From Azoarcus sp. (lineage in GTDB: Bacteria; Pseudomonadota; Gammaproteobacteria; Burkholderiales; Rhodocyclaceae), in assembly GCA_031268195.1 (NCBI GenBank), contig JAIRXQ010000037.1, positions 1 through 64,000 of the forward strand: a stretch of DNA of 64,000 nt. Direction: 5' to 3'. Made by a program: the position numbers and the translations under genes. How positions within the stretch are numbered: position 1 is the stretch's first letter; each line of letters starts with the position of its first letter. Positions 29,788-49,806 of this stretch are shown one piece after another. The notes below the pieces were generated by a model. It saw only the letters and a list, made by a program, of their open reading frames with translations, was not told where the DNA came from and searched no databases.

Positions 29788-29997
29788 ATGGAAAGCCTTT
29801 ATTTGTTGATTCCCTTTTCCGTTTTATTGGTGTTCGTGATAGGCGCCCTATTCTGGTGGTCGTTACGTACGGGACAATACGACGACCTCGAAGGTCCGGC
29901 ATATCGGCTCCTGCTCGATGATCGGGATGAGATGGGGGGGGAAGAAAAAAGCAACGCCGAAGAGGAAACAGAAATGTCCGACCGCCATCAGGTGTAA
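29788..29997 (+). CDS. ccoS: cbb3-type cytochrome oxidase assembly protein CcoS
   Basis: MESLYLLIPFSVLLVFVIGALFWWSLRTGQYDDLEGPAYRLLLDD. Confidence 0.88.
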   Translation: MESLYLLIPFSVLLVFVIGALFWWSLRTGQYDDLEGPAYRLLLDDRDEMGGEEKSNAEEETEMSDRHQV

Positions 29998-30052: not shown

Positions 30053-30066
30053 TTGATCTAAGTCAA
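30053..30066 (+). promoter_or_regulatory. FNR/ANR-type site (one mismatch)
   Basis: TTGATCTAAGTCAA vs TTGAT-N4-ATCAA; -10-like CATACT at 30088-30093. Confidence 0.55.
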
Positions 30067-30099
30067 TGGAATAAGGCTCAAACAAGGCATACTGGCCCC

Positions 30100-30204
30100 G
30101 TCTTGCAGGACGTCCGTCCTGCTGTGGCTGTAAAGCCTTGTAGCCGCAAGGGTTTTTGTCTCTCTGTTGGGGTTGGGGGTGCGTGCATGCGCACCCTTTT
30201 TTTT
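30100..30204 (+). ncRNA. Candidate FNR-activated small RNA (or independent leader transcript) ending in a strong terminator
   Basis: No credible ORF; hairpins GCAGGAC-gtcc-GTCCTGC and CCTTG-tagccg-CAAGG; terminator GGGTGCG-tgcatg-CGCACCC-TTTTTTTT at 30177-30204. Confidence 0.5.
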
Positions 30205-30302: not shown

Positions 30303-30316
30303 TTGATCTGTATCAA
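30303..30316 (+). promoter_or_regulatory. Perfect FNR/ANR box upstream of ccoN
   Basis: TTGATCTGTATCAA; -10-like TATCCT at 30338-30343, suitable for a class II promoter. Confidence 0.75.
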
Positions 30317-30426
30317 ATTGTAGATCCCCCCCGAAGGTATCCTTCGGCGGACGATAGCGGTGCCTCATCGCTATCGGAGCTGTTTGGTTGTGCACAGAGG
30401 GTTTTATCAACTAAGAGGTGACTCAC

Positions 30427-31878
30427 ATGCAATCGCAAGCGACTTATAACTACAAAGTCGTGCGCCAGTTCGCCATTATGACTGTAGTGTGGGGTATCGT
30501 GGGCATGCTGGTTGGCGTCATCATCGCCGCTCAACTGGTCTTTCCGGATTTGCTGAATCTTCCGGTTGTCAACGAATTCCTATCCTTCGGCAGACTGCGC
30601 CCGTTACACACCAACGCGGTAATTTTCGCGTTCGGTGGATGTGCCTTGTTCGCGACGTCGTTCTACGTCGTACAGCGCACCTGTCAAACCAGGTTGTTTG
30701 CGCCGGGCCTGGCTACCGTTGTTTTTTGGGGCTGGCAGCTCATCATCGTCGCGGCGGCGGTTTCTCTTCCGGCGGGCAACACCACCGGCAAGGAATACGC
30801 CGAACTCAACTGGATCGTCGACATCGTGATCACCCTGGTCTGGGTGCTTTACGCGATCGTGTTCTTCGGCACGCTGGCGATTCGCAAGGTGAGCCACATC
30901 TACGTTGCGAACTGGTTCTACGGCGCATTCATCATCGCCGTGGCCCTGCTGCACATCTTCAACAGTTTCGAAATTCCGCTCGTGTTCTTTGGCGGCGCGC
31001 TGCTCGATTCCTACTCGTTCTACGCCGGTGTGCAGGACGCGATGGTGCAGTGGTGGTATGGCCACAATGCGGTGGGCTTCTTCCTGACCGCGGCCTTCCT
31101 CGGGATGATGTACTACTTCGTGCCGAAACAGGCCGATCGCCCGGTCTACTCCTATCGCCTGTCCGTGGTGCACTTCTGGGCGCTGATCTTCACGTACATG
31201 TGGGCGGGTCCGCACCATTTGCATTACACCGCGCTGCCCGATTGGGCGCAATCCGTCGGCATGGTGTTCTCGCTGATCCTTCTGGCACCGTCCTGGGGCG
31301 GCATGATCAACGGCATCATGACCCTGTCGGGCGCCTGGCATAAGCTGCGCACCGATCCGGTCCTGAAGTTCCTCATCACCTCGCTGTCGTTCTACGGCAT
31401 GTCGACCTTCGAAGGTCCGATGATGTCGATCAAGAGCGTCAACGCGCTGTCGCACTACACCGACTGGACGATCGGCCACGTGCACTCCGGCGCGCTGGGC
31501 TGGGTGGCGATGGTCGCCGTCGGCTCGATCTACTTCCTGCTGCCGCGCCTGTACGGCAAGACCGAGATGTACAGCACCAAGCTCATCAACACCCACTTCT
31601 GGGTGGCGACGATCGGCATCGTGCTCTACATCGCCTCGATGTGGATCGCCGGGGTGATGCAAGGTCTGATGTGGCGCGCGACCAATCCGGATGGCACCCT
31701 GACCTACACCTTCGTCGAAGCCGTGAAGGCAACCTACCCATTCTGGACCGTCCGTCTCGTGGGTGGCACGCTTTTCCTCGTTGGCATGGTGATCATGTTC
31801 TACAACGTGCTCAAGACCATCGGCAGCGGTAAAGCCTACGATGCACCGGTGGTGGTTCCTGCCGCCGCCCATGCCTAA
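30427..31878 (+). CDS. ccoN: cbb3-type cytochrome c oxidase subunit I
   Basis: [52 protein letters not shown]. Confidence 0.96.
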
Positions 31879-47112: not shown

Positions 47113-49712
<2,600 letters not shown>

Positions 49713-49718
49713 GTCGCG

Positions 49719-49806
49719 TTTCCCTACGCCGGTATGATCCGGGTCAGGTTCGAAGGGTTTTTCTCAGCCCGCGCGCACGTCGTGGCGGACACCCCCAGCG
49801 GTGCCG
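49719..49806 (-). ncRNA. TPP riboswitch (THI element)
   Basis: Reverse complement: GCTGGGGGTGTCCG...GGGCTGAGAAAAACCCTTCGAACCTGACCCGGATCATACCGGCGTAGGGAAA, just upstream of thiD. Confidence 0.95.

Follow-up and report, generated by a model that had tools for sequence, protein, structure and literature searches.

The segment between ccoS and ccoN of an Azoarcus sp. most probably carries the gene of an FNR-activated, Hfq-type, trans-acting small RNA (sRNA) that would block ribosome binding on mRNAs of aerobic and oxidative-stress genes under anoxia; we put the probability of this reading at about 0.85. The segment lies in a stretch of 64,000 nucleotides, which was analysed whole and is called the window here. 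In the proposed mechanism, scarce oxygen would lead FNR, or an AcpR/ANR-type orthologue, to activate a class II promoter from a site at -41.5. The resulting RNA of about 100 nt would terminate at its own terminator, ahead of the ccoN promoter. Its near-invariant and partly unpaired UCUCUCUGUUGGGGUUGGGG would then pair, probably with Hfq, to CCCCAACCCCAACRGAG sequences overlapping Shine-Dalgarno regions, and translation of superoxide dismutases, enzymes of oxygenase-type aromatic degradation, a TusE-like sulfur relay protein and others would be blocked. The promoter, seed and terminator are conserved, covariation is seen at the RNA level, and complementary sites are enriched at translation starts.

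All features of the locus lie on the plus strand. Upstream of the sRNA segment are ccoI and ccoS, the latter placed at 29788-29997 by the ORF list and by synteny; downstream is ccoN (30427-31878), with its start codon at 30418 (GTG) or 30427 (ATG). The first FNR box, TTGATCTAAGTCAA (30053-30066), agrees with TTGAT-N4-ATCAA at 9 of 10 positions and is centred at 30059.5. After a spacer of 21 nt it is followed by the -10 element CATACT (30088-30093). The start expected from this geometry is near 30101, which puts the box at -41.5, the class II distance. An earlier note on this DNA had read the same box, hexamer and geometry, and each was found where it had placed them. The FNR-type activator AcpR of Azoarcus acts at -41.5 (PMC6678401).

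Measured from the expected start through the last U of the terminator tract, the sRNA gene is about 100 nt long (30101-30204). Its 5' part (30101-30150) is a hairpin domain in which the hairpin is kept in relatives and the sequence is not. It is followed by a conserved seed region, UUGUCUCUCUGUUGGGGUUGGGG (30154-30178), and by a Rho-independent terminator (30175-30204) with the stem GGGTGCG/CGCACCC and eight U. The terminator stem-loop, GGGGGTGCGTGCATGCGCACCC, runs into T8 at 30197-30204, so that the strong terminator with eight T expected from the earlier note is present; a separate, perfect FNR box for ccoN, TTGATCTGTATCAA, follows downstream at 30303-30316. A terminator scan found 5 terminator-like sites versus 0.7 expected. 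The stable hairpins that had been anticipated were also borne out, as the 102-nt RNA folds at -45.4 kcal/mol with z = -4.0 versus dinucleotide shuffles. The predicted fold of the full-length RNA places some of the G-rich seed in paired regions.

The spacing of box and -10 element and the terminator recur across relatives beyond chance. We counted 155 distinct loci; a further entry, L197, is a target site and not an sRNA. TTGAN6TCAA occurs within 170 nt upstream in 152 of the 155 loci versus 0.1% of shuffled upstream sequences. A -10-like hexamer lies 20-23 nt after the box in 117 loci, and the pair of box and hexamer was found in no shuffles. Among these 117 scored loci the spacer is 21 or 22 nt in 116, and the hexamer reads CATACT 72 times and CATAAT 16 times. 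Of the 156 loci that have a T run, 153 show a U tract of 7-9 nt. Among 97 distinct sequences, 99.6% of the cells of the terminator stem are paired, and 6 of its 8 pairs have changed on both sides, as compared to 0 of 500 shuffles. A conserved FNR box at -41.5 of the sRNA promoter, the mark of the FNR-activated anaerobic sRNA class, is thus present, and we infer that FNR controls the promoter and that the RNA is expressed anaerobically. Judged from sequence alone, the RNA also has the features of an Hfq-dependent sRNA, namely a Rho-independent terminator, a long U tract and Hfq encoded in the same genome (G000:C42:9422), and it would be expected to bind Hfq.

These features indicate a conserved RNA that has a promoter and a terminator of its own and appears to be neither a coding sequence nor a ccoN leader. 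The earlier note had stated that the segment holds no ORF. Taken literally this does not hold, since short mechanical ORFs do cross it; what stands is that no reading frame is conserved among relatives, because the length of the terminator loop differs between them. These ORFs are what a small protein would have in its favour as the product of the segment instead of a regulatory RNA. We regard such a protein as extremely improbable: indels occur among relatives in the terminator loop and in the upstream domain, every base of the seed is conserved rather than codon positions, and the stem covaries.

The position of the sRNA almost always just upstream of ccoN, together with its strong terminator, would also suit a cis-acting leader or attenuator of ccoN, in which transcription from the first box reads through or terminates in response to a signal. 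This is very unlikely. A second FNR box is found within 450 nt downstream in 130 loci, where it lies below the terminator and serves ccoN itself, which argues against a ccoN leader. Conservation falls on a single-stranded stretch rich in G, U and C and not on an aptamer-like fold, no conserved antiterminator was seen, complementary sites recur at unlinked genes, and two loci carry an OmpW-like gene between the box and the RNA. The proposal of the earlier note that this is a separate sRNA rather than a leader is therefore supported by the conserved box and terminator and by the FNR box of ccoN.

The sRNA is widespread in the family. Of 151 genomes of Rhodocyclaceae, 124 match covariance model R1, which was built on the 3' half; they represent 58 of the 68 genera, Azoarcus, Thauera, Dechloromonas and Accumulibacter among them, and the match nearly always falls between ccoS and ccoN. 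In a DNA search of 60 relatives, the 3' half (30154-30204) showed about 90-98% identity in most genomes of the same genus; for the family's other genera the identity was 85-96%. The sRNA adjoins cco genes in all 26 loci compared; ccoS precedes it and ccoN follows it in every case where the contig or the retrieved stretch extends that far. In the alignment of these 26 loci (A1), the core TCTCTGTTGGGGTT(G)GGGGTGC is invariant except for one G, whereas the 5' half differs freely between loci. Scanning named genomes for an exact pattern detected the sRNA in Azoarcus, Aromatoleum, Thauera, Zoogloea, Dechloromonas, Azonexus, Candidatus Accumulibacter, Sulfuritalea, Denitromonas, Uliginosibacterium and Tepidiphilus, along with a few chance matches, e.g. 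in Nocardioides and Ruegeria. In the wider order, strong covariance-model matches were obtained in only three genomes outside Rhodocyclaceae, and a search for relatives through CcoS in viral contigs found none. The earlier note had made conservation of box plus terminator a test of its proposal, and this conservation held in dozens of genera. Two assemblies contain two copies of the locus each (G012:C105 and G012:C77; G146:C163 and C206), which may reflect a strain mixture or a duplication.

The three loci that lack a box within 170 nt deviate in different ways. In L053 the FNR box is located farther upstream. In L051 and L129 the FNR box is about 750-770 nt upstream of the seed, and an OmpW-like reading frame occupies the interval; the seed-terminator directly follows this ORF (L051:1501-1564, minus strand; L129:1240-1301, plus strand). 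This arrangement suggests that in these two genomes the sRNA has turned into part of a 3' UTR. Such loci, and a 5' domain variable in both sequence and length (median 57 nt), are what would be expected if the sRNA were generally of the 3'-UTR or processed type and functioned as a short fragment, cut by RNase E and beginning close to the seed, comparable to S17S of Bordetella. We consider this unlikely as the general case, since a dedicated promoter lies about 100 nt upstream in most loci, so that processing is not required.

No Rfam family was found at the sRNA site at the gathering threshold; the only Rfam matches within the window are two tRNAs and a TPP riboswitch (49704-49806, minus strand, 63.3 bits). 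A search of mainly open-access literature found no paper describing the sRNA in these genera. FnrS of E. coli and other enterobacteria is an FNR-activated, anaerobic, terminator-ended sRNA which represses aerobic and oxidative-stress genes including sodB (PMC10993149). The Rhodocyclaceae RNA is likewise a predicted FNR-activated, terminator-ended sRNA with sodB among its candidate targets, but its seed, location and taxonomic range are different, and its predicted target set is largely other (TusE-like, boxC, sodC). The FnrS covariance model gave no match in the window, nor in ten relatives at E values up to 5. The sRNA is best explained as a functional analogue, not a homologue, of FnrS.

AniS of Neisseria, which is named in neisserial papers, is an FNR-dependent betaproteobacterial sRNA. 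Its family (RF02274) resembles the Rhodocyclaceae RNA at the 3' end, in UUGGG plus the terminator, but is without the CUCUGUUGGGGUUGGGG core; the best match, in L025 only, scored 26.4 bits versus a gathering threshold of 50, and none was obtained in the window. Thus, the likeness to FnrS and AniS drawn in the earlier note holds for the probable mode of action, whereas the RNA is a member of neither Rfam family. SorY of Rhodobacter (RF02651) is partly similar in CUGUUG..UUGGG followed by a terminator, but is a singlet-oxygen-response RNA of alphaproteobacteria. Its best score was 38.6 bits (L025) versus a gathering threshold of 111, and the window copy gave no match at threshold. These weak sub-threshold similarities, to SorY in a few loci and to AniS in one, lie in the terminator and the CUGUUG..UUGGG stretch.

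S17 of Bordetella pertussis (bdhR1), a strongly conserved sRNA of betaproteobacteria, has a C/U-containing seed and represses numerous mRNAs at the ribosome-binding site; it was also reported in Aromatoleum and AP021857 (PMC11722255). We considered it because that paper names these two. It is a different gene: RF02278 (gathering threshold 50 bits) gave no match at the sRNA site (G000:C21:30100), its copies above the cut-off are at other loci (G000:C37:46473 and G031:C1:514166), their seed part reads TCTCCTCCACCCTCNTC, and the seed of the Rhodocyclaceae sRNA is missing from these loci. The window genome thus also contains a Betaproteobacteria toxic sRNA of the S17/bdhR1 type (RF02278) at G000:C37:46473-46537 (L212). 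In one relative, G089, six RF02278 copies score above threshold, and five of these cluster within about 3.6 kb.

The near-invariant core UCUCUGUUGGGGUUGGGG is probably the seed. Some weak extra matches were the reverse complement of the seed at ribosome-binding sites. CCCCAACCCCAACAGAGAGA or a near copy stands just before a TusE/DsrC-family gene in five genomes. A protein search found a TusE-like paralogue or DsrC relative in 27 of 101 genomes. Most close TusE-like leaders keep the complement through G-U-compatible substitutions (CCCTAACCCTGACAGAGAG and similar), and it was not found in the leaders of more distant DsrC paralogues. The unbiased target pattern CCCNAACCCYNACRGRG was scanned over 151 genomes and gave 29 non-self sites, 25 of which are at a translation start, 17-47 nt before the start codon. 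With a control pattern scrambled except for its SD-like end, 9 sites were found, 3 of them at starts. Target prediction, which the earlier note had proposed, gave an enrichment at starts (25/29 vs. 3/9). Four matches (L289, L299, L304 and L305) have no start codon nearby and were treated as chance.

By Pfam and NCBIfam, the candidate targets are Fe-SOD (sodB), Cu/Zn-SOD (sodC), BoxC, catechol 2,3-dioxygenase, pirin, DsrC/TusE and a WrbA-like quinone oxidoreductase, and the TusE/DsrC paralogue is recurrent among them. There are also two acyl-CoA dehydrogenases of the glutaryl-CoA type (GcdH-like), one from the scan and the second recognised by the similarity of its start, and a secreted lipoprotein in four genomes. 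NifS, NifX, a TonB receptor and a phasin are candidates that are not obviously aerobic; within the genus, sites are found at NifS (G015) and at a hemerythrin-domain protein (G002). Base pairing with mRNAs of aerobic and oxidative-stress genes, as in sRNAs of this class, is predicted from complementarity, and repression would be the direction of regulation. The mean pairing energies with the seed are -27.0 and -20.6 kcal/mol for TusE-like and sodB leaders, respectively, as compared to averages of -12 to -18 kcal/mol for the background of cco leaders and DsrC paralogues (P = 6e-11 and 1e-13). All pairing energies at ribosome-binding sites are inflated, since UCUCUC in the seed matches Shine-Dalgarno sequences generally; moderate values are therefore no evidence by themselves.

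In the window genome itself, the best site, CCCCAGCCCCGACAGAGAGAC, would form 24 uninterrupted pairs, two of them G-U, and lies 25 nt ahead of an ATG. The ORF behind it encodes 91 aa (L343:1046-1318, plus strand, G000 contig 34) and belongs to no Pfam or NCBIfam family. The sodB leader of the window genome has no long complementary site, so the link to sodB rests on relatives. We rejected sodB as a universal target, as strong sites occur in only some sodB leaders. Exact 11-mer searches in the genus returned mostly the sRNA itself and sites inside coding sequences. With an 18-mer and 3 mismatches, total matches in the genus barely exceeded the reversed control, and only selected sites were followed.

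A wider reading is rather likely, with somewhat less assurance than the mode of action itself. It holds that this is a family-wide, previously undescribed FNR-driven sRNA forming the post-transcriptional arm of the Rhodocyclaceae oxygen response. With one near-invariant seed it would read a dedicated ribosome-binding-site code (CCCCAACCCCAACRGAG) at a regulon that shifts between lineages: sodB and sodC, genes of oxygenase-type aromatic degradation and, in roughly one genome in four, the TusE/DsrC paralogue. In a few lineages the RNA would have relocated to the 3' UTR of an OmpW-like gene under FNR control. Rhodocyclaceae such as Azoarcus, Aromatoleum, Thauera, Dechloromonas and Accumulibacter serve as models and in industry for denitrification, anaerobic aromatic degradation and phosphorus removal, processes that each hinge on shifts between oxic and anoxic conditions. 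For these bacteria, a conserved anaerobic sRNA whose predicted targets include both oxygen-defence genes and genes of aerobic aromatic degradation would supply a level of regulation that has been missing so far. Its existence would further suggest that the FnrS strategy, in which an FNR-activated sRNA shuts off sodB and other aerobic genes, had an independent origin. Because promoter, seed and target sites are all short and well delimited, the idea can be tested directly in genetically tractable strains.

An IscR-like sequence (CCCGACTA-N-AGTCAAG / GTCGGG) was noticed just upstream in several TusE-like and sodB leaders (L249-L261; L311-L340). Its presence in these leaders suggests that they may be under joint iron-sulfur and sRNA control.
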